Below, piece after piece: positions 7,650-26,957 of a stretch of DNA of 64,000 nt (within the stretch, counting starts at the first letter, position 1; each line of letters begins with the position of its first letter). The stretch is from positions 124,478 to 188,477 of the forward strand of contig JAGOBA010000006.1 of NCBI GenBank assembly GCA_017983635.1, given 5' to 3'. The stretch comes from Alphaproteobacteria bacterium (lineage in GTDB: Bacteria > Pseudomonadota > Alphaproteobacteria > Micropepsales > Micropepsaceae). The notes beneath the pieces are model-generated. The model worked only from the letters and a program-made list of their open reading frames with translations. It was not told where the DNA came from and ran no database searches. The position numbers and the translations under genes are program-made.

Positions 7650-8831
7650 ATGAGCGGCAACAAAGACGATCTCGACATGCAAGAAGCGGCGACGGCGCCT
7701 GAGGCGTCGGCGGACGCGACGCCGCCTGCCGCGGATGCCGCTGCGGCTGCGCCTGCGAACGGTGAAGCGCCGGCGGGCGGCGATGCCGAGGCCGATGCGG
7801 CAGCCTGGGAAGCGTCGCTCGGCGAGGGTGATGGTGCCGCGGCTGCCGAGGGCAGTTCCGAGCGCGTTTTGAACCAAGACGAGATCGACAATCTGCTTGG
7901 CTTTGACGGCGGCGGCGGCGGTGCCGACGAACGCACCGGTATCAAGGCGATCGTCAATTCCGCGCTGGTTTCGTACGAGCGCTTGCCGCTACTCGAGATC
8001 GTGTTCGACCGGCTTGTACGGTTGATGACGACGAGCTTGCGTAACTTCACGTCCGACAACGTCGAGGTCAGCCTGGACAACGTGTCGTCGGTGCGCTTTG
8101 GCGACTATTTGAATTCGATCCCGTTGCCTGCGATTTTGGCGGTGTTCCGGGCGGAAGAGCTGGACAACTACGGCCTGATGACGGTCGACTCGAACCTGAT
8201 CTATTCGATCGTGGACGTGCTTCTGGGTGGACGCCGTGGGACGGCTGCGATGCGCGTCGAAGGACGTCCCTATACGACGATCGAGCGCAGCCTCGTGCAG
8301 CGTATGCTCGAAGTCGTGCTGGCGGACCTGCAGGTTGCGTTCGAGCCGGTGTCGAAGGTTCGCTTTGGGTTGGATCGCATCGAGATCAATCCGCGCTTCG
8401 CGGCGATCGCGCGGCCGGCGAATGCGGCCGTGCTGGTGAAGCTGCGCGTCGACATGGAAGATCGTGGCGGGCGCGTCGAGCTGCTGTTGCCGTACGCGAC
8501 GCTGGAGCCGATCCGCGAGCTGCTGCTGCAGATGTTCATGGGCGAAAAGTTCGGCCGCGACTCGATTTGGGAAGGCCACTTGGCGACCGAGCTCTGGCGT
8601 ACGAATGTCGATCTTGAAGCCGTGCTCGACGAGATGCCGATGACGCTTAACGATGTCATGAACCTTGAGGTCGGGCAGACGTTGATGCTGAACGTCGGGC
8701 CGGAGGCGCCGATCGAGTTGCGCTGCGGCGGCGTCGGCTTGTTCGCCGGCCGCATGGGCCGCGTCGGTCATCAGGTTTCGGTTCGCGTGGAAAACGCAAT
8801 GCAACGGCGCCAAGCGCCGACGGGGGCGTAA
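7650..8831 (+). CDS. fliM: Flagellar motor switch protein FliM
   Basis: FliM is the middle C-ring protein that binds CheY-P and FliG. The 393-residue product contains the CheY-binding motif LNQDEIDNLLGF at 74-85, the central CheC-like domain with GGRRGTAAMRVEGRPYTTIE, and the FliN-like C-terminal domain ending in a basic tail. The EIDNLL motif is pushed inward by a 70-residue acidic, Ala-rich N-terminal extension. Enterobacterial FliM has this motif almost at the N-terminus. Confidence 0.96.
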   Translation: MSGNKDDLDMQEAATAPEASADATPPAADAAAAAPANGEAPAGGDAEADAAAWEASLGEGDGAAAAEGSSERVLNQDEIDNLLGFDGGGGGADERTGIKAIVNSALVSYERLPLLEIVFDRLVRLMTTSLRNFTSDNVEVSLDNVSSVRFGDYLNSIPLPAILAVFRAEELDNYGLMTVDSNLIYSIVDVLLGGRRGTAAMRVEGRPYTTIERSLVQRMLEVVLADLQVAFEPVSKVRFGLDRIEINPRFAAIARPANAAVLVKLRVDMEDRGGRVELLLPYATLEPIRELLLQMFMGEKFGRDSIWEGHLATELWRTNVDLEAVLDEMPMTLNDVMNLEVGQTLMLNVGPEAPIELRCGGVGLFAGRMGRVGHQVSVRVENAMQRRQAPTGA

Positions 8832-8834
8832 CAG

Positions 8835-9215
8835 GTGGATAGCACGCTGATTATCAATGGGGTCGTGATCGCACTTTTGGCGGCGACGATTTTCTATGCG
8901 TTCCGGCTGGAGCGCAAGCTTGAAGCGATGCGCAGTGCGCAAGCCGCGTTCGGCGACATCGTCCGGGAGCTGAATAGGGCGACTGCGCGCGCGGAGGCCG
9001 GCATTCAGGGTTTGCGCGCCACGGCGGAGACGTCCGGCCATTCACTGGACGACAAGATCAAGCGGGCGCGCAGCGTCTGTGACGAGTTGGGCATTCTGGT
9101 GCAGGCGGGGCAGCGGCTCGGCCAGCGCATCGAAACGATGCGTCCGGCGGGACCGGTGCGCACGCAATCGAATCCGGCCGGTGAGGCGCTTCGCGCACTC
9201 GGCGGTCTGCGGTAA
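8835..9215 (+). CDS. DUF6468-like single-pass membrane protein
   Basis: The 126-residue protein starts with a GTG (MDSTLIINGVVIALLAATIFYAF), has one N-terminal membrane helix at about 5-24, then a predicted coiled-coil cytoplasmic part (RKLEAMRSAQAAFGDIVRELNRATARAEAGIQGL) and a Gly/Pro-rich tail. It lies 3 bp after fliM and before motE. Small coiled-coil proteins of this kind, annotated DUF6468, occur at this position in alphaproteobacteria. In Caulobacter the flagellar positioning protein PflI is encoded in the same neighbourhood, but homology to PflI is not shown here. Confidence 0.6.
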   Translation: MDSTLIINGVVIALLAATIFYAFRLERKLEAMRSAQAAFGDIVRELNRATARAEAGIQGLRATAETSGHSLDDKIKRARSVCDELGILVQAGQRLGQRIETMRPAGPVRTQSNPAGEALRALGGLR

Positions 9216-9229
9216 AGGAACGAACTCAC

Positions 9230-10042
9230 ATGTCTTCGCGCGTACGTTTGCTTCCGGCGCTGATCGGCGCAGCCGGGGTGTTGATGGTTTTGCGGCTCGG
9301 CGCGATGGCGTCGGCGGCCGAAGAGGCGAAGCCTGCCGAGGGGGCGGAGCCGCATGCGGCGGAGACGCACGCAGCGGAACCGGCAGCCGAGGCGGCCGAA
9401 GCGCACGCGGAGGCCCCAACAGAGACAAAGACAGCAGATGCGACGCCGACGGCGGTTGCTGCGCCGGAGCCTGCAACGAGCGGGATCGCGCAGGCTCAAA
9501 CGAAGGGCGAGGCGCAGGTGCTTGAGAATTTGAGCGAACGACGCGCGGCGCTTGACGCGCGCGAACGCGACTTGTCGATGCGGGAGCAGCTGCTTGATGT
9601 GACCGAGAAGCGGGTCACGCAGCGGGTCGCGGAACTGAAAGATCTAGAGGCCCGGTTGAACGCGTTGCTGACGCAGCGCGACGAGCAGGAAGAGGTTCAG
9701 TTGACCTCGCTCGTGAAGACCTATGAGAACATGAAGCCGACGGATGCGGCGAAGATCTTCAACAAGCTCGACCGCGGTGTGCTTCTGAGCGTTGCGTCCC
9801 GTATGAAGCCGGCGAAGATCGGCGCGGTGATGGCGGCGATGGAACCGGCACGGGCACAGGAGCTGACGGTGATGCTGGCGAAGCGCATGTCGGTCGGCAA
9901 ACCTGTCGCTGCTGCCAACCCGGCACCTGCACCGGTTCCGGTCGCTGCGCCGGCGCCGGTTGAGGCACCGGTGACGGCACCGACCGAACAGCCGCAGGCG
10001 GCGGCGCCGCCGGCCGCTCCGGCTGAGGCACCACACGGCTGA
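9230..10042 (+). CDS. motE: MotE-like flagellar protein (MgtE N-domain)
   Basis: The 270-residue protein has a signal/anchor segment (VRLLPALIGAAGVLMVLRLGAMASA), a long Ala/Glu-rich low-complexity stretch to about residue 90, a coiled coil (about 95-150) and a MgtE-N/FliG-like helical domain (about 155-225) with PTDAAKIFNKLDRGVLLSVASRMKP-type sequence. It ends in an Ala/Pro repeat tail. In rhizobia MotE is a periplasmic chaperone for MotC; here the context is the fliL-fliM operon. The name follows this architecture and position. Confidence 0.75.
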   Translation: MSSRVRLLPALIGAAGVLMVLRLGAMASAAEEAKPAEGAEPHAAETHAAEPAAEAAEAHAEAPTETKTADATPTAVAAPEPATSGIAQAQTKGEAQVLENLSERRAALDARERDLSMREQLLDVTEKRVTQRVAELKDLEARLNALLTQRDEQEEVQLTSLVKTYENMKPTDAAKIFNKLDRGVLLSVASRMKPAKIGAVMAAMEPARAQELTVMLAKRMSVGKPVAAANPAPAPVPVAAPAPVEAPVTAPTEQPQAAAPPAAPAEAPHG

Positions 10043-10045
10043 TCC

Positions 10046-10060
10046 TTAACGCGGGTTTAA
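10046..10060 (+). promoter_or_regulatory. CtrA-type box TTAA-N7-TTAA
   Basis: TTAACGCGGGTTTAA is an exact TTAA-N7-TTAA match, followed by CC as in the extended TTAACC form. It lies 4 bases after the motE-like stop and about 50 bases before the TPR gene. CtrA controls early flagellar and cell-cycle genes in Caulobacter and motility genes in other alphaproteobacteria. A separate CtrA-controlled promoter for the TPR gene is inferred. Confidence 0.55.
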
Positions 10061-10108
10061 CCGCGGTTTCGCTAGGGTCGGCCGCTTGGGTTCGGCTTGG
10101 TTCTCCAC

Positions 10109-13100
10109 GTGTCGTTGCGTAGTTCACTCACGTTTGTCCTGACGACGGCTTTGGCGGCGAGCGCCCTGGCCGAGGACGCACTGCGCGCGAAGGTGAGCGC
10201 GAGCACGCAAGGCGGCTACGCGCGGTTGCTGTTCGATTGGCCGGAGCAGGCGACGGGTTCGGCGGAACTCAGCAGCGGCGTTCTGGTCATCAGTTTCGAT
10301 AAGAGTTTTCCGGCCGACGTCGATGCGCTGTCGCGCACGCTTGAGCCGTACGCCGCGTTGGTGCGCGCCGATCCTGATGGACGGGCGTTGCGCATCGCGC
10401 TCAAAGGGCCGGTGCGGTTGAAGTCGGCGGTTGTCGGCTCGCGCTATGCGTTCGATCTCATTCCGCCCTCGTTCAGCGGCGATCCGCCGCCGCCGGCTCC
10501 ACCGGCGAACATCGTGCAAGGGCCGCCGACGCTGACCGTGCGCGCGACGGAGCGCGAGCAGGTCACGCGGCTGCAGTTGGATTTTCCGGGCAAGGCCGCT
10601 TACACCGCGAAGCTTGAGGGTGGGAAGCTGCGGGTGACATTCGCGAAGGATGCGCGGGTCGATCTGAAGCGTTTTACCGAGGCGCCGCCTTCGTGGGTTC
10701 GCGGTGCGCGCTCGTTCTCGGCGGGTGGCAAGCTCACCGTCGAATTCGACGTCGATGCCGAGGCCGATTTTCGCGATGCGAGCACCGGCGATCGCGTCGT
10801 TCTCGAGCTCAGCAATCCAAAGTCTGACGCGCAGGTGATCGTGACGCCCGGCGCGCCGAAGGTGCTGATTCCGCAGACGGTTGCGGAAGAGGTCGCGCCG
10901 CCACCGCCGAAGATCGTGGCCGAGACGATTTCGTTCGCGCTGCCGCCGCGTAAGTCGGCGACGGCTGCGGCGATGCCCGCGCCGGTCTTGCCGCCGGCGG
11001 TGGATCAGAAGTTACAACCGACGCCGGTCGCCTATAGCGACGCGGCGGCGGTGCATGCGGCGGGCGTAGCGCCGCCGGTCGATGACGAACCGATTGTGTC
11101 GGCGGATCCAAGTCCGTTGCCGCCGACGTTGCGGCTTGGCCAGTCGGACCTGGGCGCTGCGCTTGCGCCGGCGCCGACGATTGCCCCGGCAACGCCGGGT
11201 CAGGCGCGGGCCGAGATCTACGGGTCGATGGTGCGGATCGAGTTGCCGTACACGAAGCTTCCGCCGGCCGCTGTGTTCCGCCGCGGGCTGGCGATTTGGG
11301 TTGTGGTGGCGACGGCTGAAGGCATGGATTTGAGTGCGCTTGGTCAGTTGCCGAACTCACCGCTGCGCGTGTTGTCGGCGCCGACGCAAGTGACATCCGG
11401 GGTCACGGCGTTCCGTTTGGAAGCGCCGGGGTCGATGACGGTGAGTGCGGCGGCGGCCGGCAATAGCTGGGTGCTCGCTGTCGGCAATACGGTTCCCGAT
11501 GTGCCGGCGCAGTTGCAGCTTGTGCGGCAGACGGTCGGGCCGAAGACGCAGCTGCGCGCCTTCCTGCCGGGGATCACGCAAGTCGTTTGGATCAAAGATC
11601 CGCAGGCCGAAGACCGGATCGCGGTGGTGCTGAGTTATGCGCCAGCGCGGGGTCTGGCGAGCGGGCGCAGTTTTGTCGAGTTCGCAGCGCTGCCGTCGCA
11701 ACAAGGTCTGGCCGTGCAAGCGGTGGCGGACGATCTCAGCGTCGCTGTCGAAGGCAGCGAGGCGGTGATCACGCGGCCCGTGGGTCTTAGCATTTCCGAT
11801 GCGGCGGTGGCGAAGGCATCGACCACGTGGGTGCCGGTGACGACCGGCGGCGAGAGCCCGGCGTTCGTCGACTTCGTCGCGTGGGGCAAGCCGGTGGCGG
11901 AGACACGCGCGGAGGCGGTGCGCAAGTTGATGCGGCTTTCGTCAGAAAGCCCGGGCGGTATGAGCCCGCCGCGCATGACGTTGGCACGTTACTACATCGC
12001 CGAGGGGTTTGCAGCCGAAGCGCTCGGCGTGCTCGCCAACATCGCGCGCGAAGACCGCACTTCGGAGGCCAATCCACAGTTCCGCGTCGCGCGCGCGGTC
12101 GCGAATATTCAGATGGGCCGTTATCGCGATGCGCTGACCGAACTCAGCATGGAATCGCTCGGCAACGATCCACATGCCGCGATGTGGCGCGGGCTTGCTG
12201 CGGCCGGTGCGCGCGACTGGCGTACGGCGCGCAGTAGCTTGATGGCCGCGCTTCGGATCGTGAACAGGTATCCGCCGAAGTGGGAGGGGCGCGCGCGCGT
12301 CGATCTCGCCAAGGCGGCGCTTGCGTTGAACGAACCAGCGAGCGCGATGCAGGCGCTGGCCGGCATGCCGCGTCATGCGTTGCCCGCGGACGTTATGGGA
12401 GATGCGACTGTCGTGCGCGCAGCGTTGGAAGTGGTTGCGGGTAAGCTGGATGCGGCGATCGCGCTCTACGATCAAGCGGCGGCGTCGCCCTACAAGCCGG
12501 CAGCGGCGAGGGCGAAGCTTGAAGGAACGGTGCTGAAGGCGGCCAAGGGGAAGCTCGGGCCTGCCGAGGCAATCGATGCGCTAGAGCGGCTACGCTTTCA
12601 ATGGCGTGGCGACGATATCGAGCTCGAGACTCTGAGGCAGCTCGGCAAGCTCTATGTCGAGAACAATCGCATTCGCGACGGTTTGAACACGATGCGGCTG
12701 GCGGTGCGGCACTTCTCGACGACGGACGATGCGCGCGCTACGGCGACGCAGATGGCGAAGATTTTCGAAAGCCTGTTTCTGGAAGGTAAGGCCGACAATC
12801 TGCCGCCGGTGCAGGCGCTGGCCTTGTTCTATGACTTCCGCGAGTTGACGCCCGCGGGCGCGCAGGGTGACGAGATGATCCGGCGGCTGGCGGAGCGGCT
12901 GGTCACGGTCGATCTGTTGCCACAGGCGGCGGAGTTGTTGCAGCACCAGGTCGACAATCGTTTGGACGGCATCGCGAAGGCCTCCGTCGCGACAAAGTTG
13001 GCACTGATTTACTTGCTCGATCGCAAGGCCGAGAAGGCACTCGCCGTCATTCGCACAACGAAACAGACGCGATTGCCGGACGATCTGATTGGGCAGCGCA

Positions 13101-13579
13101 ATCTGATCGAGGCGCGCGCGCTCGCCGACCTCAAGATGTACGACGCGGCGCTCGATACGATTGCGGCCGACTTGTCGCCGGAAGGCGAACGGCTGCGCGC
13201 GGATGTGCTGTGGGATGCGCAGCGTTGGGGCGATGCGGCGGCGCGGGCGGAGGAGTTGCTGGCCGCGCGCTATCAGGATTTGACGCCGCTCAACGAAATC
13301 GAGCGCAGCGATTTGATGCGAGCGACCGTTGCCTATTCGCTGGCCGGCGACGCGATGTCGGTCGAACGGCTGCGCACGCGCTTTGGGCCAAAGATGTCGC
13401 AATCGCCAGACGCGAAAGCGTTCACGCTGCTCACGCAATCGCCGGACGTCACCGACGACGACTACAAGAATGTGGTGAAGCGTGTGGCGTCGGTGGACAC
13501 GCTGGATGCGTTCCTGGCGGAGTTCAAGTCGAAGCACAGCGCGACGCCGGCGGCAGCTCCGGCGCCGACGACACATTAA
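10109..13579 (+). CDS. Large secreted TPR-repeat protein of flagellar locus
   Basis: This is a protein of about 1156 residues with an N-terminal signal peptide (SLRSSLTFVLTTALAASALA), beta-rich AMIN-like segments (about 25-260) and Ala/Pro-rich linkers. A C-terminal solenoid of TPR-like helices runs from about residue 600 to the end (for example YYIAEGFAAEALGVLANIA and RYRDALTELSMESL). Secreted TPR proteins of this size follow fliL-fliM in several alphaproteobacteria. A role in cell-envelope assembly of the flagellum or its placement is inferred only. The GTG at 10109 is chosen; a TTG at 10097 is an alternative. No enzyme motif was seen. Confidence 0.75.
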   Translation: MSLRSSLTFVLTTALAASALAEDALRAKVSASTQGGYARLLFDWPEQATGSAELSSGVLVISFDKSFPADVDALSRTLEPYAALVRADPDGRALRIALKGPVRLKSAVVGSRYAFDLIPPSFSGDPPPPAPPANIVQGPPTLTVRATEREQVTRLQLDFPGKAAYTAKLEGGKLRVTFAKDARVDLKRFTEAPPSWVRGARSFSAGGKLTVEFDVDAEADFRDASTGDRVVLELSNPKSDAQVIVTPGAPKVLIPQTVAEEVAPPPPKIVAETISFALPPRKSATAAAMPAPVLPPAVDQKLQPTPVAYSDAAAVHAAGVAPPVDDEPIVSADPSPLPPTLRLGQSDLGAALAPAPTIAPATPGQARAEIYGSMVRIELPYTKLPPAAVFRRGLAIWVVVATAEGMDLSALGQLPNSPLRVLSAPTQVTSGVTAFRLEAPGSMTVSAAAAGNSWVLAVGNTVPDVPAQLQLVRQTVGPKTQLRAFLPGITQVVWIKDPQAEDRIAVVLSYAPARGLASGRSFVEFAALPSQQGLAVQAVADDLSVAVEGSEAVITRPVGLSISDAAVAKASTTWVPVTTGGESPAFVDFVAWGKPVAETRAEAVRKLMRLSSESPGGMSPPRMTLARYYIAEGFAAEALGVLANIAREDRTSEANPQFRVARAVANIQMGRYRDALTELSMESLGNDPHAAMWRGLAAAGARDWRTARSSLMAALRIVNRYPPKWEGRARVDLAKAALALNEPASAMQALAGMPRHALPADVMGDATVVRAALEVVAGKLDAAIALYDQAAASPYKPAAARAKLEGTVLKAAKGKLGPAEAIDALERLRFQWRGDDIELETLRQLGKLYVENNRIRDGLNTMRLAVRHFSTTDDARATATQMAKIFESLFLEGKADNLPPVQALALFYDFRELTPAGAQGDEMIRRLAERLVTVDLLPQAAELLQHQVDNRLDGIAKASVATKLALIYLLDRKAEKALAVIRTTKQTRLPDDLIGQRNLIEARALADLKMYDAALDTIAADLSPEGERLRADVLWDAQRWGDAAARAEELLAARYQDLTPLNEIERSDLMRATVAYSLAGDAMSVERLRTRFGPKMSQSPDAKAFTLLTQSPDVTDDDYKNVVKRVASVDTLDAFLAEFKSKHSATPAAAPAPTTH

Positions 13580-14448
13580 GTCTGCTGAAAGTCCAATCCC
13601 AAATCCAAGCACTTGGCCGAGTGCGTGATCGCGCCTGAGGAAATCAGGTCGACGCCCGTCGCTGCGATGGCGGCGATGGTATCGGCGGTGACGTTGCCGG
13701 AGGCTTCGAGGGTGGCGCGGCCTGCCGTGCGTTTGACCGCTTCACGCAGGGTGTCGGGCTTCATGTTGTCGAGAAGGATGGCGTTCGCGCCCAGTTCTAG
13801 GGCTTTGTCGAGTTGCTCGAGGCTGTCGACTTCGACTTCGACGTGGACCATATGGCCGGCGTGGGCGCGCGCGGCCTTGATCGCGTTTGCGATGCCACCG
13901 GCGGCGACAATGTGATTGTCTTTAATCAAGATTCCATCGTCTAGGCCGAAGCGGTGGTTGTGACCGTCGCCGCAGCGTACGGCGTATTTCTGGATCGCGC
14001 GCAGGCCTGGCGTTGTTTTGCGTGTGCAGACGACACGTGCTTTCGTGCCTTCGCAGAGTTTTACGAGCTTAGCGGTCGCAGTTGCGACGCCGGAGAGGGG
14101 CCCCAAGAAGTTCAGCGCTACGCGTTCGCCGGTGAGGATAGGCCTCGCGGGGCCGTCGACGATCGCGATCGTGTCGCCACGGGCGACGTCGGCGCCGTCG
14201 CCGGCGCGGACGGTCACCTTGATCGTGGGGTCCATCAAGCGGAATGCGGTCAGTGCGAAGTCGAGGCCGGCGATGCGGCCGGGCTCGCGCGCGGCGATCA
14301 CGGCGTGCGCGGTGGCCGCCGGCGGGATCGTTGCCTGTGTCGTGAGGTCGCCGGCGCGGCCGAAGTCTTCGAGCAGGGCCGCGCGCACGGCCGGCTCAAT
14401 AATGAGCGGCGATAACGGTTCGACGGCGATGGCCGGCTTGATGCTCAT
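13576..14448 (-). CDS. nadC: Nicotinate-nucleotide pyrophosphorylase (carboxylating)
   Basis: NadC turns quinolinate and PRPP into nicotinate mononucleotide, the third step of de novo NAD synthesis. The 290-residue product has the full family core: RARVVCTRKTTPGLRAIQKYAVRCGDGHNHRFGLDD, then IKDNHI and the barrel strands VEVEVDSLEQ and ILLDNM. Its ATG overlaps the nadB stop (ATGA). Its stop codon shares a TTAA with the stop of the convergent TPR gene. Confidence 0.97.
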   Translation of the reverse strand: MSIKPAIAVEPLSPLIIEPAVRAALLEDFGRAGDLTTQATIPPAATAHAVIAAREPGRIAGLDFALTAFRLMDPTIKVTVRAGDGADVARGDTIAIVDGPARPILTGERVALNFLGPLSGVATATAKLVKLCEGTKARVVCTRKTTPGLRAIQKYAVRCGDGHNHRFGLDDGILIKDNHIVAAGGIANAIKAARAHAGHMVHVEVEVDSLEQLDKALELGANAILLDNMKPDTLREAVKRTAGRATLEASGNVTADTIAAIAATGVDLISSGAITHSAKCLDLGLDFQQT

Positions 14449-16046
14449 CGGACTGCCTGCAGGCCGCTGCCCAGTTTCGTGTCGCGCACCGCGAGGGCCA
14501 TGGTGGCCCGGATCTCGGCCAAGGTGACGAACGTGCGTTTCGCTTGTGCAGGGTCGGCCTTCGGGTAGTCGCTGCGGAAGTGGCCGCCGCGGCTTTCGGT
14601 GCGGTTGAGCGCTGCGCCGGCGATGAGGCTTGCGGTCGCGGTCATGTTGCGCATGTCAGGATCGGCGGCGTTCGATTTTTCAAGTTGGTCGATGACGGCG
14701 AGCGCTGCGATCAGGTCGCCGGCATTGCGTTCGAGGCCGACGTTCATGGTCATCGTTTTGCGCAGGGTGGTGACGGCCGGGCCGTTCGGCATTCCGCCGC
14801 TTGTTGGTGTTTGGTGATCGGGTTTCGGGTTTTGGTGGCGGTGCGCGATGCGTTCGACGTCGCGTGCTGCGCGCGAGCCGAAGACGATGGCTTCGAGCAG
14901 TGAGTTCGAGGCGAGGCGGTTGGCGCCGTGCGCGCCGGTGGAGGCGCACTCGCCGATCGCCCAGAGGCCGTCGAGGCTTGTGCGCGCGTTGTCGTCCACG
15001 GCGATGCCGCCCATGTGGTAGTGCGCTGCCGGCGAGACGGGGATGAGGTCGGTGCGCGGGTCAAAGCCGGCGGAGCGGCAGGTTTCGAACACGGTTGGGA
15101 AGGCATCCGGGAAGCGTGCGCCGATCGCTTGGCGCGCATCGAGGAAGGCTTTCCGGCCGGCTTTGATCTCGCGGAAGATGCCCCGGGCGACGACATCGCG
15201 CGGGGCGAGTTCGGCGTCCTTGTGGGCCGCAGCCATGAAGCGTTCGCCGCGGTCGTTGAGGAGGATGGCGCCTTCGCCGCGCAATGCTTCCGTGGCCAGT
15301 GGCGCGGGGTCGCGGCCGATCGCGAAGGCCGTCGGGTGGAACTGCACGAACTCCGGATCGGCGATCGTGGCGCCGGCGCGGGCCGCCATGCCGAGACCTT
15401 GGCCGCGCGCCTGCGGCGGGTTCGTGGTCACTTCGTAGAGACCGCCGACGCCGCCGAGTGCGAAGATCGTTGCGTCTGCACGGATCAGCACGGGTGAAGA
15501 TTTGTCGCTGAGCGCGTGGGCGTAGACGCCGACGACGCGACCGTTCTGCGTCGCGAGGTCGAAGGCGACAAGACCTTCGATGACGCGGATGCGCGGCTCG
15601 TTCTTCACCGCCTTGATCAGCGCCGCCATGATTTCGGCGCCGGCGCGGTCGCCGGTGACGCGGACGATGCGGTTCTTGCCGTGAGCTGCTTCGCGGCCGA
15701 GGACGAAGTTGCCTTTGGCGTCGCGGTCGAACGGCACGCCGAGGCGGGCGAGGTCGTCGATGCGCGAAGCCGCTTCGGTGGCGATGAGGCGCGCGATGCG
15801 GGGATCGACGGTGCCGGCACCGGCCGCTTCGGTGTCGCGGGCGTGGAGTTCGGGAGAGTCGTCAGGGCCTAACGCGGCGGCGATACCACCTTGCGCCCAG
15901 GTCGACGACGCGCCGGAGCCAAGCGAGGCGGCGGCCAGAACGGTGACGGGGCCTTTGATCTTCAGCGCCGTGAAGAGGCCAGCCAGGCCCGCGCCCACGA
16001 TGAGCACGCCGCCGGAGTCGATGACGTTGTCGGAGCGTCGGGTCAT
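14445..16046 (-). CDS. nadB: L-aspartate oxidase
   Basis: NadB oxidises L-aspartate to iminoaspartate with FAD. The 533-residue protein has the N-terminal dinucleotide motif VGAGLAGLFTALK (about 15-27), the SGASSTWAQGGIAAAL segment, the HPTAF motif and the substrate-domain motif AAHYHMGGIAVDDNARTSLDGLWAIGE. Near the C-terminus lies ESRGGHFRSDYP, conserved in the succinate dehydrogenase/fumarate reductase family. It is coupled to nadC downstream and separated from nadA by a repeat element. Confidence 0.97.
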   Translation of the reverse strand: MTRRSDNVIDSGGVLIVGAGLAGLFTALKIKGPVTVLAAASLGSGASSTWAQGGIAAALGPDDSPELHARDTEAAGAGTVDPRIARLIATEAASRIDDLARLGVPFDRDAKGNFVLGREAAHGKNRIVRVTGDRAGAEIMAALIKAVKNEPRIRVIEGLVAFDLATQNGRVVGVYAHALSDKSSPVLIRADATIFALGGVGGLYEVTTNPPQARGQGLGMAARAGATIADPEFVQFHPTAFAIGRDPAPLATEALRGEGAILLNDRGERFMAAAHKDAELAPRDVVARGIFREIKAGRKAFLDARQAIGARFPDAFPTVFETCRSAGFDPRTDLIPVSPAAHYHMGGIAVDDNARTSLDGLWAIGECASTGAHGANRLASNSLLEAIVFGSRAARDVERIAHRHQNPKPDHQTPTSGGMPNGPAVTTLRKTMTMNVGLERNAGDLIAALAVIDQLEKSNAADPDMRNMTATASLIAGAALNRTESRGGHFRSDYPKADPAQAKRTFVTLAEIRATMALAVRDTKLGSGLQAVR

Positions 16047-16084
16047 GCGTTGCTCCCGCTGATGATGGGCTGCAAGAAAGAGAT

Positions 16085-16266
16085 TGAACCGCCAAGAGCG
16101 CCAGGCGCCAAGGGAATGGCTTTGGCGCGAAGCGCCTGTTCACCGTTTGAATGGCGCCTGCGGCGCCGGGCGGCCTCGACTTGGCGTCTCGGCGTCTCGG
16201 CGTGAAACGTTGCGGCGTTTCCAGCGCAGCGCGGGTGATCGCCACGCAGAGCATCTTGGCGGTTCA
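16085..16266. repeat. Repeat element between nadA and nadB
   Basis: This 182-bp stretch is bounded by perfect 13-bp inverted repeats, TGAACCGCCAAGA (16085-16097) and TCTTGGCGGTTCA (16254-16266). Inside are GCGCCAA/TTGGCGC and a minus-strand copy of the TTTCACGCC.AGACGCC.AG motif (16181-16207) also seen at 3487-3506. It has no credible gene and looks like an intergenic repeat or small mobile unit lodged in the nad operon. Confidence 0.7.
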
Positions 16267-16284
16267 CATTTCTTGCGCCGTGCA

Positions 16285-17331
16285 TCAGTGCACCGCGGAT
16301 TTCGGTTTGCCTACCGCCAGCATCTTTTCGACAGCAGCGCGGGCGCGGGTGGCGATGGCGGGATCGACTTTGACTTCGTATTGCATCGTTTGCAGCGAGC
16401 GCAGGATCTTGGCCAGTGTGATGCGCTTCATGTGCGGGCAGAGGTTGCACGGGCGCAGGAACTCGACGTCGCGGTGCTGCGCCGAGATGTTGTCGGCCAT
16501 CGAGCACTCGGTCAGCATGACGACGCGGGCTGGGCGCTTCTTGATGACGTATTCGGTCATCGCGGCCGTGGAGCCCGCGAAGTCGCATTCGGCAACAACT
16601 TCAGCCGGGCATTCGGGGTGCGCGAGAACGATCGCGCCGGGATGGTCGGCCTTGAAGCGGCGGACGTCTTCGGCGGTGAAGCGCTCGTGCACTTCGCAAC
16701 GGCCATGCCAGGCGATGACCTTGATCTTCGTTTGGTTGGCGACGTTCTGCGCCAGGAACTTGTCGGGGATCATGATCACCGTGTCGACGCCGCGTTCTTT
16801 GGCGATCGACTCGACGACCGCGACCGCGTTCGACGAGGTGCAGGTGATGTCGCTCTCGGCCTTCACCTCGGCTGAGGTGTTGACGTAGGTCACTACGGGC
16901 AAGTTCGGGTACTTTTCCTTCAGCAGGCGTACGTCGGCGCCGGTGATGGAGGCGGCGAGCGAGCAGCCGGCTTCCATGTCCGGGATCAGCACCGTCTTGT
17001 CGGGCGAAAGTATCTTCGACGTCTCCGCCATGAAGTGCACGCCGGCTTGGACGATGATTTTCGCGTCGGTCTTGGCCGCTTCGCGTGCGAGCTGAAGCGA
17101 GTCGCCGACGAAATCGGCAACGCAGTGGAAGATCTCCGGCGTCTGATAGTTATGCGCGAGGATGACGGCGCCGCGCTCTTTCTTCAGGCGGTTGATCTCG
17201 GCAATCAGCGGCGCGAAGGACGGCCACTCGATCTCCGGCACGACGTTCGACACTTTCGCGTAGAGGTCGCGCGTGGCGGCTGCGACTTCCGGCGTGTATG
17301 CCAGTTTGGGTTCAAACGTGGGCCCCGACAT
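16285..17331 (-). CDS. nadA: Quinolinate synthase NadA
   Basis: NadA condenses iminoaspartate with dihydroxyacetone phosphate to quinolinate. The 348-residue protein has the family motifs [26 protein letters not shown] and [11 protein letters not shown]. Cysteines consistent with the [4Fe-4S] ligands lie in [17 protein letters not shown] and RPCNLCPHM. The ATG at 17331 is preceded by AAGGAG. The strong palindromic operator at 17344-17362 lies directly upstream of this ribosome site. Confidence 0.97.
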
Positions 17332-17343
17332 CGCTTGGCTCCT

Positions 17344-17362
17344 TATGCTCAAGTTGAGCATA
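17344..17362 (-). promoter_or_regulatory. Perfect 19-bp palindromic operator at nadA (probable NadQ site 1)
   Basis: TATGCTCAAGTTGAGCATA is a perfect palindrome around a central G. It lies just upstream of the nadA ribosome binding site, where RNA polymerase would open the promoter. A minus-strand TTGACA (17375-17370) could be the -35 element. NadQ, a COG4111 regulator predicted in alphaproteobacteria, is encoded nearby; assigning the site to NadQ is inference. Confidence 0.8.
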
Positions 17363-17406
17363 TATATGGTGTCAAAAACGGCGGCGCCAAGGCCGCCTGA
17401 CTCGGA

Positions 17407-17425
17407 AATGCTAGGATTGAGCATA
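17407..17425 (-). promoter_or_regulatory. Second nadA operator, imperfect (probable NadQ site 2)
   Basis: AATGCTAGGATTGAGCATA keeps one exact half-site (TTGAGCATA) and a degenerate partner. Its centre is 63 bp from the centre of site 1, six helical turns, so two bound dimers would lie on the same DNA face with the putative -35 box between them. Confidence 0.65.
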
Positions 17426-17555
17426 AGTCGAGTCAAGCGGGGGCCGGCAAATGGCGCGTGACCCAGCGTCGGTCACAGACATGCGGCGGCTGGGCAGGCG
17501 AAAGTGGGCGTTGTCCACCACGCTTCTTGTCTTCCTTGGTAAAAGTACTCTTTCG

Positions 17556-18512
17556 ATGAGCCGCTTCCTTGTTTTCGCCGTGCGCCGGAGCGTGATCCTT
17601 GGGTTGTTCGGCGTGGCGATGGTGATCGCCGGGGCGCTTGGCGCGCCGTGGCACTGGGTTTTCGATCTCACCGGGCAGTTTTTGTTGCCGGCGTTCGTGG
17701 TCGCGCTTGCGATTGTTCCGGTTGCGGCGTTTGCGCGCTGGCCGGGGCTCGCGGCAGCCGGCGCCGCAGCGGCAGTCGCCTGCTATGCGCTGACCTTTCC
17801 CTACACGACCGCGCCGTCCCCGGTTACGGGAGATCCGGTTCGCTTCCGCGTGTTGCTGTTCAATGTTTGGTACAGCAACCAGCGCCTGGCCGACGTGGCG
17901 CAGATGATTGCCAAGGTCGATGCCGATCTCGTTGTCATCATCGAGGCGCCGCAACGGGTGCGGAATGCGCTGCAGCAGGTTGGGTCGACCTACCCCTATC
18001 GCTTCGATTGCGCCGGTTCGGATTGCGACGCGTTGATGTTCTCGCGGGCACGGTTGTTGCCGCAAGAGGTGCGGGTGACGAGCGATCCCGATCATTCGCC
18101 CTATGTCACGGTCAGCACGGACATCGCCGGCTGCAAGTTGACGCTGCTCGCGACCCATATGACGCGGCCGTTTCCGAACCAACCCTATTGGGCGCAGCGC
18201 GCGCAGGCGCGGGAGATCGGCAGCGCCGTTGGTTTGATTCCAGGGCAGAAGTTGGTGCTCGGCGACTTCAACGCGGCGCCGTGGGGCTATGTCATGCGCA
18301 CGATCGCTGCGCGCGGCGGCGTCTCCGTGCTCACGGGGCCGGGCGGGACGTGGCCTTCGGTGCTGGTGCCGCAGCTGCGGATTCCGATCGACCATATGCT
18401 GGCGAGCCCAGGCTTGAGCTTCGTCTCGCGCGAGGTGTTGCCGCGGATCGGTTCCGATCACGCGCCGGTGCTGGCGGAGATTGCGGTGACGGATCGCTCG
18501 CAGTGCCGATAA
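17556..18512 (+). CDS. Endonuclease/exonuclease/phosphatase family protein
   Basis: The 318-residue protein has three N-terminal membrane segments (to about residue 85) followed by an EEP-fold catalytic domain. It begins RVLLFNVWYSN and contains DADLVVIIEAP, THMTRPF, LVLGDFNAAPW and, at the end, IDHMLASPG and GSDHAPVLAEI, which supply the Asn, Glu, Asp/Asn and Asp/His residues of the fold. The substrate could be a phosphodiester in nucleic acid, lipid or inositol phosphate. The start at 17556 is chosen because it begins the hydrophobic region; 17481 is an alternative. Confidence 0.8.
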   Translation: MSRFLVFAVRRSVILGLFGVAMVIAGALGAPWHWVFDLTGQFLLPAFVVALAIVPVAAFARWPGLAAAGAAAAVACYALTFPYTTAPSPVTGDPVRFRVLLFNVWYSNQRLADVAQMIAKVDADLVVIIEAPQRVRNALQQVGSTYPYRFDCAGSDCDALMFSRARLLPQEVRVTSDPDHSPYVTVSTDIAGCKLTLLATHMTRPFPNQPYWAQRAQAREIGSAVGLIPGQKLVLGDFNAAPWGYVMRTIAARGGVSVLTGPGGTWPSVLVPQLRIPIDHMLASPGLSFVSREVLPRIGSDHAPVLAEIAVTDRSQCR

Positions 18513-18515
18513 AGG

Positions 18516-20915
18516 CTAAGCCATCGTCGGCGAGCGTTGCGTTCTTGTTTGGCGCCACTTGTTTCCGTTCTCGGCAACCAGGTCGAGCTTCGAAATGAGC
18601 AACGGCGCGGAAATCGGTTTGGACACATAGTCGTCGGCGCCGGCTTCCACATAGCGTTCACGGTCGCCTGCCATGGCGTGGGCGGTCAGCATGATGATCG
18701 GCACGTCGCGTCTGGCGGTGTCGAGCGCGCGAATGCGGCGGATCGCTTCGATGCCGTCCATCTCCGGCATTTGCGCATCCATCAGCACCACGTCGTAGTC
18801 ATTCCGGCTTGCGGCATCGACCGCCTGACTGCCGTTTTCCGCAACGTCGACTGTGTGCTTCAGCTTCTTAAGCAACGCCAATTCAAACTCCTGGTTCATC
18901 TTATTGTCTTCGACCAAGAGAATTTTGAGTGCTCGCTTTGGCTCCGCCATGGTTGGTGGGGCCGTATCCGGTGCCGACGGTTTTGGCGGGGGAGTTGGAC
19001 GCTCTATATGCGTGGCGGTCTGGGCGCCGTAGAGCGCCGCCAGCGCTTGGGTCAGCTCGCGCTCGCGCACCGGCTTTTCCAGGATCGCGTCGAACATCGC
19101 GGATGACACGGTTGCGATCGATTCGCGGCCCGCCGCGGTCAGCAAGATCAGCAGCTTGTTGGAGATTTCCGGCGTCGAGCGGATCCTGCGCGCCAGCTCC
19201 TCACCGGAGATGCCCCGCATCATCTGTTCGATGAAGACGACGGAGTAGGGACGCTTTTGGTGCTTGGCGCGCTGCAGTTCCGCGAGTGCCGCAAAGCCGT
19301 CTTGCGCGAAATCGATGCTTAGTCCGAGCGGCGCAAGTTGTCCCGAGAGAACTTCGAGGTCGACCTTGTTGTCGCCGACCAAGAGGCAGCCGGCGTTGAG
19401 CAGGGAGACCGTGCGGGCGCGCGGCGCGCTTTGTTGCGTGCGGCTCACGGGGATGTCGAACCAGAATGTCGAGCCTTGGCCCTCCTGGCCCTTGGCGTCG
19501 ATCGTGCCACCCATGATGGTTACAAGCTGTTTGGAGATCGCAAGGCCCAGTCCCGTTCCGCCAAAGCGGCGCGTGAACGAACTGTCGGCCTGTATGAACT
19601 TCTCGAACAGCCGCGCTCGTTCGGCGTCGGAGATGCCGATGCCGGTGTCGGTGACTTCGAAGTGGGCGATCGAGTCGGCTGCGCCAGTGCCGCCGCGCAG
19701 AACCGTCAACTGAACCGACACCGAGCCGCGTTCGGTGAATTTTACGGCGTTGTCCAGCAAGTTCAAAATCACCTGGCGAATGCGCACCGGATCGCCGATG
19801 AAACGGCCGCGCGCCGAGGGCGCAATGTGGGCTTGAAGTTCCAGGTTTTTTTTCTTGGCTTTCACCGACAGCAGGTCGATCGAACTCTCCACGAGTTCGG
19901 ACAAATCGAACTCGATCTTCTCGAGTTCGATCTTGCCCGATTCCAACTTCGAGATATCCAAGATGTTGTTGATGATGGACAGCAGCGCATCGCTTGAGAC
20001 CTGGATCGTCTCCGCAAAGTGGCGTTGCTCGTCCGCCAATTTAGTCTCGAGCAACAAGCCGCTCATGCCGAGGATCGCGTTCATCGGCGTGCGAACCTCG
20101 TGGCTCATGTTGGCTAGGAACTCCGACTTCGCGCGATTGGCCGCATTTGCCTCGACCAGAGACGTTTGCAGTTGCGTCGAGAGTTTCTCAAGTTGGGCCG
20201 TGTGCGCCGAACGCTCCTGCTCGTGGCGGGTGAATTCGGCCGCGATCCGGTGGCCGTAAGCAAGGACGCATCCGACCATGACGATGATGAGCGCGCCGAA
20301 CATGTACTCGAAGTAGCCCAGGAACGACGCCGCGCCGACCTGCTCCTGGAAGTGGCGACGCTGGATGTTACGAACGTCTTGCGCCGTTGCCGCGATCGCG
20401 CGAGCGAGAGTGGCGAAACTGCGATCCATCGTCGCCATGCGGCGTCCGGCGGCGTCGGCGTTGTTTTCGCTGAAATAGGCAAAGATGCGATCCGCTTCGC
20501 CGATCATCTGCTGCATGGAATTGTCGATGCGGTCGATGCCGGAGCGCAGTTGTGTGCGCGCGGCGGAGTCGGGGAGTCTGTCTACGTCGCTGCGAAAGGC
20601 AGCGAGCCGTTCGCGAAATTGCACAAGTGCGGTTGCCTGGCGGGCGGACTCTTTGCCGACATTGTGGGAGTCGAAGACGTCGTTGCCGGGTGCGTTGACG
20701 TCACCGGCCGCGGCGGCAATATCTGAGAGGTCGGAGAGTTTGTTCGCCCAGCGCTGGTTCACTTCGACGGAGGAGCGAAAGATGCCCATGACCTCATGAC
20801 CGAGGTAGAGGCTGCCGCTGATGGCGCACAGATCGAATGCGGCCAACAAGTAGTACACGACGTGCCACTTCACCGGCCGGCGGCTGGGTTGCTTGACCTC
20901 GGTCTGAGTGGACAT
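18516..20915 (-). CDS. Hybrid sensor histidine kinase with two receiver domains
   Basis: The 799-residue kinase has membrane segments at about 18-38 and 198-220 flanking a helical periplasmic sensor. HisKA carries His272 in the motif [11 protein letters not shown]. HATPase motifs are N385/DNAVKF, DTGIGI and [10 protein letters not shown]. Receiver 1 (about 503-630) has Glu563 (FIEQMM) where the phospho-acceptor Asp should be, so it is probably a pseudo-receiver. Receiver 2 (about 663-785) is canonical, with EDN and [11 protein letters not shown] (Asp713). The phosphotransfer partner is not in the window. Confidence 0.95.
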
Positions 20916-21050
20916 CTGGCGATCCTCGGCGAGAGCGAGGACCTTAGAGCGGCGCGCGTAAATCCGCAGTAAGCGGTCCCCATCCGCAACGCCCGACGTT
21001 AGCCGGTCATCAAGGAAAAGTCGCCTGTTTCCGCGCTTTCGGCCGATTCT

Positions 21051-22028
21051 TCAGAGGCGGGCGCTGCGTTTGAGCGGGACGCGGACGCCGGGGGCGGGGC
21101 GTTCGCGGAGGACTTCGCGGCGGAAACGGAATTGTTCGGCGGGACGGCCGCCGGCTTTGGCGGTGCGTTTGCCGGTCCGTTCGACCAGGCCGCCGGTTTC
21201 GACGAGGCGGCGGAAGTTTTGCTTGTGCAGGTGGATGCCGGAGATGGCTTCGACGGTGCGTTGCAGGTCGAGCAGCGTGAAGGTTGCGTCCATGACTTCG
21301 AAAATGACGGGACGGTACTTTAATTTGCCCCGCAGGCGGCCCATGCCGGTCGCTAGGATGCGGCGGTGGTCGAACTGCATCGCCTCGCCGAAGCGCGCCT
21401 GCTCAGCGGCGGCGGGGGCGGAGGCCGGTAGGGTGCGTCCGTCGCGGCGGGCTTCGGCGACGAGACCTGCTTCGTACATGAGTTCGTAACGCTCCAGCAC
21501 TTTCTCTTCGTCCCAGTGCACGCCGTCGAAGCCGAAGCAGAGGCGGGCGCGTTCCCACCGCGCGTCGCGCTCGGCGGCGGCGGCCCAGGCTTCGAGGCGC
21601 GGGCGGATTACCGTGTCGATCATCGCCGGGCGTTGCTTGCGCCAATCTTCCCAAGGAAAGAAGTCGTAGGTCGAACGCCAGCGGCCAGAGGCGGAGCCGT
21701 CTTCGTTCGCACGCGTTAGGGCGAGATAGCCGACGGAGACGACGCGCGGACCTTCGCCGGGTTCGAGCACGTGGCGGCCGCGATCGCCGAAGGTGTAGAG
21801 TTGCTCCACATAGCCAAGCGACACGCGCGTTTGTTCTTCGACGAGGTTGCGCAGACCGATCTCGAGCGTGCGGTGATGCTCGGGCTCGAATGGTCCGAAC
21901 GGCAGACCGTCGGACGGTGCCCCCTTCGGATCACGCCGCACGACCAGCACTTGCGGCGTCTCGTTCGTCACCGTGATGACGCACGCGTTGAGGCCGATGA
22001 TGACGGTGTTGGGCTGGCGCGGGGGCAT
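21051..22028 (-). CDS. nadQ: NadQ-like Nudix-related transcriptional regulator (COG4111 type)
   Basis: The 325-residue protein has an N-terminal Nudix-like domain (about 5-200) whose Nudix box is degenerate (LEIGLRNLVEEQTRVSLGYV), so hydrolysis is unlikely. A C-terminal winged-helix-like region (about 225-325) contains FEVMDATFTLLDLQRTVEAI and GGRPAEQFRFRREVL. This matches the alphaproteobacterial NAD regulator NadQ, analogous to NrtR. The palindromes at nadA are the likely targets. The gene ends a three-gene operon, 4 bp after the phosphatase-like gene. Confidence 0.8.
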   Translation of the reverse strand: MPPRQPNTVIIGLNACVITVTNETPQVLVVRRDPKGAPSDGLPFGPFEPEHHRTLEIGLRNLVEEQTRVSLGYVEQLYTFGDRGRHVLEPGEGPRVVSVGYLALTRANEDGSASGRWRSTYDFFPWEDWRKQRPAMIDTVIRPRLEAWAAAAERDARWERARLCFGFDGVHWDEEKVLERYELMYEAGLVAEARRDGRTLPASAPAAAEQARFGEAMQFDHRRILATGMGRLRGKLKYRPVIFEVMDATFTLLDLQRTVEAISGIHLHKQNFRRLVETGGLVERTGKRTAKAGGRPAEQFRFRREVLRERPAPGVRVPLKRSARL

Positions 22029-22032
22029 GCGG

Positions 22033-22551
22033 CTACTTCAGTTCCACAGGCAGCTCGAAGAGGACGCCTTCGAAGACGACTTTCGGGGGCGACATGGCGT
22101 CGATGGCATCGACCATGCGGCCGTCGCGTTGGAGCAGGTGGTCGGCCAGCGCCACGATGCGCGGGTTCGGTTGCGCGTGCGGGGCGCGGGAGCGGAGCAG
22201 GTGGGCGATGTCGATTTCGCGGCCGGGCTCATTCAGCATGCAGGCGATGGTGAAGGCTGACGCCGTCGAGCGGCTGATGCCGGCCCAACAATGGATCAGC
22301 ATTGGCCGGCGGCGATCCCAGGTCTTAGCGAAAGCGATCAGGTCGCGGACGTGCACTTCGTCGGGCGGGGTGTGTTGAGGACTGCTCGAGGTGATATCGT
22401 GCATGCCGAGGCGCAGGTGACGGTGGCCGGAGATTTCCTCCGGCGTCGGCATGTCGTCGTGCGGGTCGAGCAGCGTGACGAGATGCGACGGGCGCAGGCG
22501 TGTGGTGACGCCGGGGACTTTGCTTTTCGGACAGACATAGATCGCGGGCAT
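22033..22551 (-). CDS. Tyrosine-phosphatase-like protein (COG5350 type)
   Basis: The 172-residue cytoplasmic protein carries the CX5R signature HCWAGISRSTAS (Cys88, Arg94) of cysteine-dependent phosphatases. An upstream Asp in LGMHDIT or LLDPHDD could be the general acid. It lies between an HD hydrolase and the NadQ-like regulator with 4-bp gaps on both sides. The substrate is unknown, and the link to NAD or nucleotide metabolism is inferred from context only. Confidence 0.8.
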   Translation of the reverse strand: MPAIYVCPKSKVPGVTTRLRPSHLVTLLDPHDDMPTPEEISGHRHLRLGMHDITSSSPQHTPPDEVHVRDLIAFAKTWDRRRPMLIHCWAGISRSTASAFTIACMLNEPGREIDIAHLLRSRAPHAQPNPRIVALADHLLQRDGRMVDAIDAMSPPKVVFEGVLFELPVELK

Positions 22552-22555
22552 CAGG

Positions 22556-23170
22556 TCAAGCCCGCATGTGGGTTGAAGGGAGCAAGGTCTTGAAGCGCTC
22601 GACGAAAGCGGCTTGGGCCTCGCGTGCGGGCACCGGCTTCAGCTTCAGTGCGGGCAGGCCGCGCGGTGCGCCGAAGAATTCCAGCGCTTCTTCGGCGGCA
22701 AAGCCTGCAAGTTGGGTCGCTTCGAAATAAGCAGAGGCTTTGTCGGCGCGTTTGATGAGCGCGGTCGTGTCTTCGGGAAGTTGCGCGGGTAGACCGAAGC
22801 GGACGTGGATCGCGGCGAGCAATTTGTTCTCCAGCGATTTGTAGTCGAGACCGACGGCGGCCTTGAACGGGCTGATCAGGTCGCCCACGACATACTCCGG
22901 CGCGTCGTGGAGGAGGGCTGCCAGGCGCCAGCGCTGCGCAATGCCGGGTTTGAGCAACGCAACAATGTCTTCGACAAGCATGCAGTGCTGTGCGACTGAG
23001 AACGCGTGGTCGCCGTAGGTTTGGCCGTTCCAGCGCGCGACACGGGCGAGGCCGTGGGCGATGTCTTCGATCTCGACGTCGAACGGCGAGGGGTCGAGCA
23101 GGTCGAGGCGACGGCCTGACAGCATGCGCTGCCAGGCGCGTGGCTGGGCGGCTCGTTGAAGTTTGGCCAT
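22556..23170 (-). CDS. HD-domain hydrolase (YfbR-like)
   Basis: The 204-residue protein has the HD superfamily residues expected of a YfbR-type metal-dependent nucleotidase: His55 or His62 in GDHAFSVAQHCML, and His88-Asp89 in ALLHDAPEYVVGD. A later DTTALIKRADKASAYFEA segment provides another Asp. YfbR enzymes act on deoxynucleoside 5'-monophosphates; whether this member does is unknown. It is the first gene of the operon with the phosphatase-like and NadQ-like genes. The ATG at 23170 is chosen by family start. Confidence 0.82.
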   Translation of the reverse strand: MAKLQRAAQPRAWQRMLSGRRLDLLDPSPFDVEIEDIAHGLARVARWNGQTYGDHAFSVAQHCMLVEDIVALLKPGIAQRWRLAALLHDAPEYVVGDLISPFKAAVGLDYKSLENKLLAAIHVRFGLPAQLPEDTTALIKRADKASAYFEATQLAGFAAEEALEFFGAPRGLPALKLKPVPAREAQAAFVERFKTLLPSTHMRA

Positions 23171-23283
23171 GGCGGCGTGGTAACCCTGTTTGCCGCACTT
23201 GTTGACCCCAGCCGCTTGATTCAAGTCAAGGAGGATGCGTCCGCGAAGGCCTAGATTTGTTATTGGCGAAAAGGAGGGTCCAG

Positions 23284-24150
23284 ATGGCTTATCGCAAAAT
23301 TCTAGTGCCGCTGATGGGCGGCGCACACGATTCACACATATTGAGTACGGCGTTCGAGGTTGCCAAAGCGTTCGGGAGCCACGTTTCCGGCGTCTTTGTG
23401 CGGCCCGATCCGAGCGAGGTTCTGCCGTATCTGGGCGAAGGCGTTTCAGCCGGCGTGATCCAAGAGATCATGGATGCGTCGCGCGATGCCGCCAACCGAG
23501 CGGCGGCGGTCGCGCGCGGGAATCTGGATGGGGCTGCGAAGGTTGCAGGTGCTTCCGTGTTCGACGCGGGACAGGCCGGCAACGGCGTCGGCGCATCGTT
23601 TCATGTGCGCGACGGGATGTTGGAAGATGTGCTGACCGAGGAGGCGCGGCTCTCGGATCTTGTGGTGTTCGAAACACCATCGCAAACCAGAGAGGCGATC
23701 CTGCAGAGCGCGATCGAGTCGGTGCTGCTCAATGGGCGCAAGCCGCTGCTGATCGTACCGCACCAGGCGTCGAAGATTGTCGGTGCCAAGGCTGCGATCG
23801 GTTGGGACGGCGGTGCGGCGGCGGCGCATGCGATTTCAGGCGCGATCCCGTTGCTCGCGCGTGCGGAAGGCGTCGAAATATTGAACGTCACAACCGGCCC
23901 GATCGATACGGTGCAGATGGACCGTCTGCGCGACTATCTGCGGTTGCACGGGCTCAGCGTGGTCGAGCACGGGATCAATCCGGGCAGTCAGAGCACGGCG
24001 CATGCGCTGATCGACGGGGCGCAACGCGCGGGTGCGGGACTGCTCGTGATCGGCGGCTATGGTCATAGCCGGCTTCGCGAAATGGTGCTGGGTGGCGTGA
24101 CGCGGCACGTGTTTGCGAACGCGACCATGCCCATCTTCATGGCGCACTGA
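23284..24150 (+). CDS. Tandem universal stress protein
   Basis: The 288-residue protein has two Usp domains. The first begins YRKILVPLMGGAHDS; the second ends with GGYGHSRLREMVLGGVTRHVFANATMPIFMAH, the G-X2-G-X9-G(S/T)-like nucleotide-binding tail. Tandem Usp proteins respond to stress and starvation, and their targets are rarely known. AAGGAGGG eight bases upstream fixes the ATG at 23284. A small conserved-looking gene follows after 11 bp. Confidence 0.92.
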   Translation: MAYRKILVPLMGGAHDSHILSTAFEVAKAFGSHVSGVFVRPDPSEVLPYLGEGVSAGVIQEIMDASRDAANRAAAVARGNLDGAAKVAGASVFDAGQAGNGVGASFHVRDGMLEDVLTEEARLSDLVVFETPSQTREAILQSAIESVLLNGRKPLLIVPHQASKIVGAKAAIGWDGGAAAAHAISGAIPLLARAEGVEILNVTTGPIDTVQMDRLRDYLRLHGLSVVEHGINPGSQSTAHALIDGAQRAGAGLLVIGGYGHSRLREMVLGGVTRHVFANATMPIFMAH

Positions 24151-24161
24151 GGGGTACGGTC

Positions 24162-24527
24162 ATGGCGATGTTTCATGTTCGGCTCGAGCTTGCACGTTCT
24201 AAGGAGCATCCAAACGGAAGTGCGCGTCACGGCTACGAGTTCGTGGCGCCGCTCGACGCGCAGGGGCACTTGAGCGCGGAGGAGTGGAAGAAGAGCAAGG
24301 CGAAGTGCACGGTGAGACGCTTCAGTGCCGGTGAGGGCGACGAGCACGGGTTGCTCATCGATGTCGGGCGTGGCTGGCACTTCGACTATGATGCGGGCAG
24401 CCGTGAGGACGACGAGCCGCTGTACAAACTCGACCGGCACACGATCAAGCAGGGCGAGTACCTGTCGATCACCGAGCACGATGGGGTGATGCGGACATTC
24501 AAGGTTGTGAGCGTCACGGCGGTTTAG
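24162..24527 (+). CDS. Hypothetical protein downstream of Usp gene
   Basis: The 121-residue soluble protein is rich in charged residues and probably beta-strand dominated (MFHVRLELARSKEHPNGSARHGYEF, then LDRHTIKQGEYLSITEHDGVMRTFKVVSVTAV). I do not recognise a family. The short 11-bp gap suggests co-transcription with the universal stress gene, so a stress-related role is possible but unproven. No signal peptide or membrane segment is visible. Confidence 0.75.
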   Translation: MAMFHVRLELARSKEHPNGSARHGYEFVAPLDAQGHLSAEEWKKSKAKCTVRRFSAGEGDEHGLLIDVGRGWHFDYDAGSREDDEPLYKLDRHTIKQGEYLSITEHDGVMRTFKVVSVTAV

Positions 24528-24631
24528 GATTCCCAAGCGTAAAGCAGCGGCCGGCATAGAGCGCTTGCCATGGGGCAGGGTCTTGCATCAGACTGACAAA
24601 TTGTCAGACCATTGAACGCGAGACTTTCGAC

Positions 24632-26446
<1,815 letters not shown>

Positions 26447-26450
26447 GGCT

Positions 26451-26480
26451 TGGCAGTCTTTGGCAGTCTTTGGTATTCTC
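26451..26480 (+). repeat. Three 10-bp tandem repeats upstream of parD
   Basis: The units TGGCAGTCTT, TGGCAGTCTT and TGGTATTCTC follow each other exactly, 20 bp before the parD ATG. A one-helical-turn period fits a ribbon-helix-helix operator, and autoregulation by ParD is inferred. Confidence 0.6.
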
Positions 26481-26499
26481 TCCGAAGCGAGGTTCGACC

Positions 26500-26950: not shown

Positions 26951-26957
26951 CAGACCG

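Follow-up and report, generated by a model that had tools for sequence, protein, structure and literature searches.

A NadQ operator at a fixed distance behind a terminator-like hairpin in the nadABC leader of Micropepsaceae and other Alphaproteobacteria

Two copies of one palindrome, one perfect and one degenerate, stand before nadA in this Micropepsaceae genome. Which protein binds them, why is one copy degenerate, and how do they relate to the DNA that lies between them? We addressed these questions in a window of 64,000 nucleotides (the whole stretch of DNA analysed), where the genes and control elements discussed below lie on the minus strand, and in the nadA upstream regions of relatives. 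The latter comprised 83 loci of the same family and a distant set, which combined 60 loci sampled across the class in NadQ-bearing genomes with 80 named GTDB loci (e.g. Shinella, Rhizobium, Phyllobacterium, Afipia, Rhodoblastus, Parvibaculum). The distant counts of the hairpin, of the adjacent- and far-site classes and of the opposite-strand control exclude six loci that match members of the family set.

The regulator and its two predicted operators

The perfect copy, O1 (17344-17362, centre 17353), is a 19-bp palindrome of 9+1+9 bases, TATGCTCAA-G-TTGAGCATA, and the imperfect copy, O2 (17407-17425, centre 17416), reads TATGCTCAATCCTAGCATT on the nadA strand and agrees with the motif at 14 of 18 positions. 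Our sequence check agrees with the initial annotation on both sites and on the 63 bp between their centres. O1 is the sole match in the window at up to three mismatches (0 in 100 shuffles) and, in a search of the whole 4.6-Mb genome, the sole match at up to two, with one more three-mismatch site elsewhere. That O2 is a chance match can be rejected, as two sites stand upstream of nadA in 81 of the 83 family loci. In this genome O1 adjoins the Shine-Dalgarno sequence of nadA (AGGAG, 17339-17343; start codon ATG, 17331-17329), and an RNA copy of O1 folds into a hairpin beside the ribosome site (17339-17362).

A NadQ-like protein encoded nearby had been proposed as the regulator. Such a gene, nadQ, lies 3.7 kb upstream of the nadA control region (21051-22028, minus strand). 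Its product aligns over nearly its full length (residues 6-321, E 1.3e-81) with the NadQ structure PDB 7q91, which we take to be the Agrobacterium protein, and the alignment takes in the winged-helix region LHKQNFRRL. The NrtR winged helix PF21906 is found at the C-terminus (residues 243-302), while NF050029 (NrtR) reaches 56.8 bits against a cutoff of 400 and covers the C-terminal part only; no Nudix Pfam domain was matched in the protein, whose N-terminus is unlike that of ADPR-type NrtR. By homology, nadQ encodes an ortholog of the crystallised NadQ (COG4111).

The portions of the regulon literature available to us give ttATRCTCannntGAGYATaa before nadABC as the NadQ consensus (Leyn et al. 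2016, PMC5343134) and cite NadQ as an ATP-responsive repressor, the response to ATP being reported for the Agrobacterium protein (Minazzato et al. 2022, via PMC11452294, PMC12421817). O1 fits this consensus exactly, and O2 fits it except in the right arm. In addition, all 20 matches at up to two mismatches in the family genomes searched sit, by coordinates, just upstream of nadA. Since the motif match, the orthology of the regulator and the confinement of matches to the region upstream of nadA all concur, the regulator proposed in the initial annotation is soundly assigned, and both palindromes are supported as predicted NadQ operators for nadABC. Moreover, because O1 is the only genomic match at up to two mismatches, NadQ seems to control this one operon here and not its own gene.

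The operon consists of nadA (quinolinate synthase, 16285-17331; NF006878, TIGR00550, PF02445), nadB (L-aspartate oxidase, 14445-16046; NF005701) and nadC (quinolinate phosphoribosyltransferase, 13576-14448; TIGR00078). It had been described as split, and a gap between nadA and nadB is indeed present (16047-16284), but its cause is the insertion of a 238-bp dispersed repeat that is absent from most relatives examined; in close relatives the gap measures 7-40 bp. The repeat has 15 full or partial matches in the genome, and its inverted repeats, TGAACCGCCAAGA, are perfect over 13 nt (16085-16097 and 16254-16266). Its appearance is that of a REP- or MITE-type element inserted into the nad operon.

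A promoter on O2 and a hairpin before O1

An independent scan of the window places a promoter, TTGACT-17 bp-TAGCAT (17436-17408), over O2. Its -35 element (17431-17436) belongs to the sole promoter-like match in 17200-17600, its -10 element (17408-17413) is common to the right arm of O2, and transcription is predicted to start at 17401, about 7 nt after the -10. The distal operator thus sits between the -35 and -10 elements. Across the family O2 is asymmetric, with T at arm position 12 in 69 of 81 loci and G in 2, which gives TAGCAT, and O1 is symmetric, with G at that position in 81/81. The sequence CTTGAC upstream of O2 is kept in about three quarters of the 81 loci, and TTGAC stands 16-17 bp from TAGCAT. 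The right arm of O2 doubles, on this comparison, as the predicted -10 of the nadA promoter, and O2 would be imperfect because that arm must also act as a promoter element.

The initial annotation had placed the -35 elsewhere, at a TTGACA between the two sites. This hexamer is present (17375-17370 on the nadA strand), but as a -35 it can be rejected: its T's end the U-run described below, no -10 lies at a usable distance, and it is not conserved as TTGACA outside the genus.

Between O2 and O1 lies a candidate intrinsic terminator, a GC-rich stem followed by a U-run, which would presumably terminate transcription in vivo. The hairpin GGCGGC-CTTGGC-GCCGCC (17380-17397, predicted +5 to +22) and the TTTTT after it (17374-17378) form the best-ranked terminator-like site (17397-17374, GGCGGC-CTTGGC-GCCGCC-GTTTTT) both in 8000-27000 and in 17200-17600. 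Under a strict criterion, by which the 3' end of the stem lies 12-22 bp before O1 and at least five T's occur in the following tract, hairpin and U-run were found in 70 of 83 family loci and 63 of 131 distant alphaproteobacterial loci, where shuffled sequences lead one to expect 2.0 and 2.2. Control anchors gave hairpin rates of 1.3% in the window and 1.8-2.5% at other places upstream of nadA; on the opposite strand of the same stretch, a hairpin occurred in 6/83 family and 2/130 distant loci. The 13 family loci and many distant far-site loci that fail the criterion include some with degenerate hairpins visible by eye. In the family, T occupies positions -15 to -12 relative to O1 in 90-94% of loci.

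The stem itself varies while its pairing is kept: in a per-sequence count, its bases swap among C-G, G-C and A-T. A MAFFT alignment of 40 hairpins registered the stems poorly, so pairing was scripted in fixed columns and per sequence. Fixed-column pairing in the family is 68%, against at most 54% for every slide of 1-3 columns, and lies above all 500 permutations, a test whose weight is limited by the relatedness of the sequences. The strength of the hairpin is moderate (median dG -10.9 and -8.3 kcal/mol, mostly 5-7 U in 8). Between U-run and O1 (17363-17373 and equivalents) lies a G- and C-rich stretch, with G at -9/-10 and CCC at -8 to -4 in most hairpin loci. The hairpin loop, CTTGAA, can be rejected as a -35, as it is conserved in the family only and variable elsewhere.

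Of the 70 family hairpin loci, 66 carry a promoter-like TTGAC/TAGCAT pair ahead of the hairpin, where 2.8 would be expected, and 31 of the 63 distant ones have a promoter-like match there (4.5 expected). In 65 of the 66 family loci with a promoter call, the predicted starts place the hairpin at +2 to +13 (mode +5). A comparison of 17200-17600 with Rfam gave nothing up to E = 1, and hence no known riboswitch or leader. In Shinella and Rhizobium, a promoter read by eye as CTTGCA-N17-CTAAAT stands just before the hairpin; in nine loci of this type the promoter is without a NadQ site, and the sole operator found lies behind the terminator.

It is conceivable that the hairpin serves as an insulator against read-through from upstream, with nadA transcribed from a second promoter that overlaps O1 and is repressed directly by it. 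TATRCT in O1 does resemble a -10, O1 follows an ATATA run in the family, and nadQ lies upstream in the same direction in many relatives. We consider this reading quite unlikely: the conserved promoter sits upstream of the hairpin, promoter-like matches between hairpin and O1 are few (8/70 family and 5/63 distant loci), and outside the family no conserved -35 is found upstream of O1, on which ground we reject a second promoter there. In this genus, moreover, the upstream gene is divergent, which leaves no close co-directional gene to insulate from; for the same reason we reject the hairpin as the terminator of that neighbour.

Readings of the rigid distance

Comparison of the nadA upstream regions across relatives shows which distance is rigid. 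In 115 of the 133 hairpin loci, 16-18 bp separate the end of the stem from O1, a distance with an sd of 1.3-1.5 bp. O2 and O1 are 60-74 bp apart in the family (63-74 in the genus; sd 2.8 bp) and 54-121 bp apart outside it (sd 14 bp). As read from these sequences, the conserved unit is hairpin, U-run, 16-18 bp and operator. Among 398 Pseudomonadota genomes, a T-run with a perfect site was found in 3, before nadA each time.

The initial annotation had emphasised a different spacing, the 63 bp or 6.0 helical turns between O1 and O2, as a same-face geometry for two NadQ dimers that bind cooperatively or loop the DNA. Family spacings do cluster moderately at 62-66 bp (R = 0.44), but 18 of 81 family loci have spacings of 67-70, the spacing varies without phase outside the family (R = 0.12), and some relatives have O1 and lack O2. 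Six-turn looping can be rejected on the spacing, and we regard same-face cooperation as highly improbable.

A second architecture bears on the role of the hairpin. In this arrangement the two sites are 20-32 bp apart, and the hairpin is found in 0/23 such loci, against 43/66 far-site loci outside the family (Fisher p 8e-9). Fifteen loci with NadQ site starts 24-28 bp apart have the promoter over the first site, without a terminator hairpin.

We lean towards the reading that O2 blocks initiation and that NadQ bound at O1 is a roadblock that stalls RNA polymerase on the terminator. Steric repression at O2 follows from its position: NadQ bound between the -35 and -10 elements would prevent the polymerase from binding. 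A polymerase that starts nevertheless would transcribe the hairpin at about +5 to +22 and then the U-run, with NadQ on O1 directly ahead and holding it on the terminator. Instead of pushing the repressor off, the stalled polymerase would then be released by the promoter-proximal hairpin. Once NadQ leaves in its response to ATP, the polymerase would read through the terminator and nadABC would be made. The evidence for the coupling of terminator and roadblock is correlational, and the loci that fail the strict hairpin criterion weigh against it. Three observations together favour it: the distance between hairpin and O1 is fixed, an RNA sensor would not fit, and loci in which O1 abuts the promoter do not have the hairpin. 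Indeed, only a few bases separate the predicted start from the hairpin, too few to hold an aptamer or leader peptide, so that among the rigidly placed elements O1 alone could gate it.

The same elements could act separately, as two independent steric operators and a constitutive, leaky attenuator, with O1 as a plain roadblock and a hairpin that lowers basal nadA expression or, as a stem, stabilises the 5' end, none of them cooperating. Every element is ordinary when taken alone, and the moderate strength of hairpin and U-run suits this account; since it leaves unexplained both the fixed distance across Alphaproteobacteria and the lack of a hairpin where O1 adjoins O2, we judge it rather unlikely. 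The geometry also raises a difficulty for the coupled roadblock. Release usually takes place about 8 nt past the stem, a point that here falls 9 bp before O1, where polymerase would overlap bound NadQ; forward translocation, and hence termination, might be hindered. From this collision one could argue that NadQ at O1 opposes termination by blocking forward translocation, or that a polymerase paused on the U-run excludes NadQ from O1 in a kinetic switch. Either effect is very unlikely in our view, as it would make little sense for the regulation of this operon if NadQ promoted read-through at one site while repressing at O2.

Known systems and significance

The regulator, the operator consensus and the targets are already known in kind: the NadQ (COG4111) regulon of Alphaproteobacteria, in the portions of its literature available to us, has the same regulator family, operator consensus and nadABC targets, and those portions do not mention a leader terminator, an overlap of O2 with the -10 or a fixed distance between terminator and O1 (PMC5343134; PMC11452294). 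In the literature searched, we found no precedent for NadQ regulation in a leader or for a coupling between a roadblock and an intrinsic terminator, and to our knowledge the conserved, rigid unit of terminator and repressor site is undescribed.

Related elements are familiar from several systems. Repression by DNA looping of the lac and gal type uses two operators of one repressor around a promoter. The nadA region likewise has two operators around its promoter, but their spacing is unphased among relatives. Biosynthetic operons with premature-terminator attenuators (PMC2965389; TRAP, PMC3913778) also carry an intrinsic terminator in their 5' leader; the nadA leader, in contrast, could not accommodate an aptamer, a leader peptide or an antiterminator, and the candidate control is a DNA operator 16-18 bp further on. 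LacI, PurR, GalR, CcpA and CodY have been reviewed as roadblock repressors (PMC10310618), and as in those systems the operator is predicted to lie downstream of the start, in the path of the elongating polymerase, with O1 from about +40 relative to a start placed by the -10. The known cases differ in that release from LacI, CcpA and CodY roadblocks is credited largely to Mfd, whereas here the proposed roadblock stands directly behind a conserved intrinsic terminator at a fixed distance.

This difference may matter. LacI roadblocks 30-60 bp from the promoter allow more read-through than distant ones, a difference that the authors relate in their discussion to sigma factor retention and to a weaker action of Mfd (PMC4132739). 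A built-in terminator would remedy such a leaky promoter-proximal roadblock and make it tight. More tentatively, it is possible that across Alphaproteobacteria a repressor bound to DNA 16-18 bp past a hairpin near the promoter makes polymerase stall on the U-run; whether transcription terminates in the leader of the NAD operon would then be decided by a DNA operator and not by an RNA sensor. The Rhizobium- and Shinella-type loci would offer the cleanest test cases for roadblock control. The degenerate look of one operator copy, for its part, would be explained by the -10 element that O2 holds. If the coupling is real, a DNA-binding protein would gate attenuation here with no RNA sensor involved, and the terminator would offer a natural route to free polymerase that has stalled at a roadblock close to the promoter; a search for this pattern of hairpin, U-run, fixed gap and operator could then be extended to other repressors.
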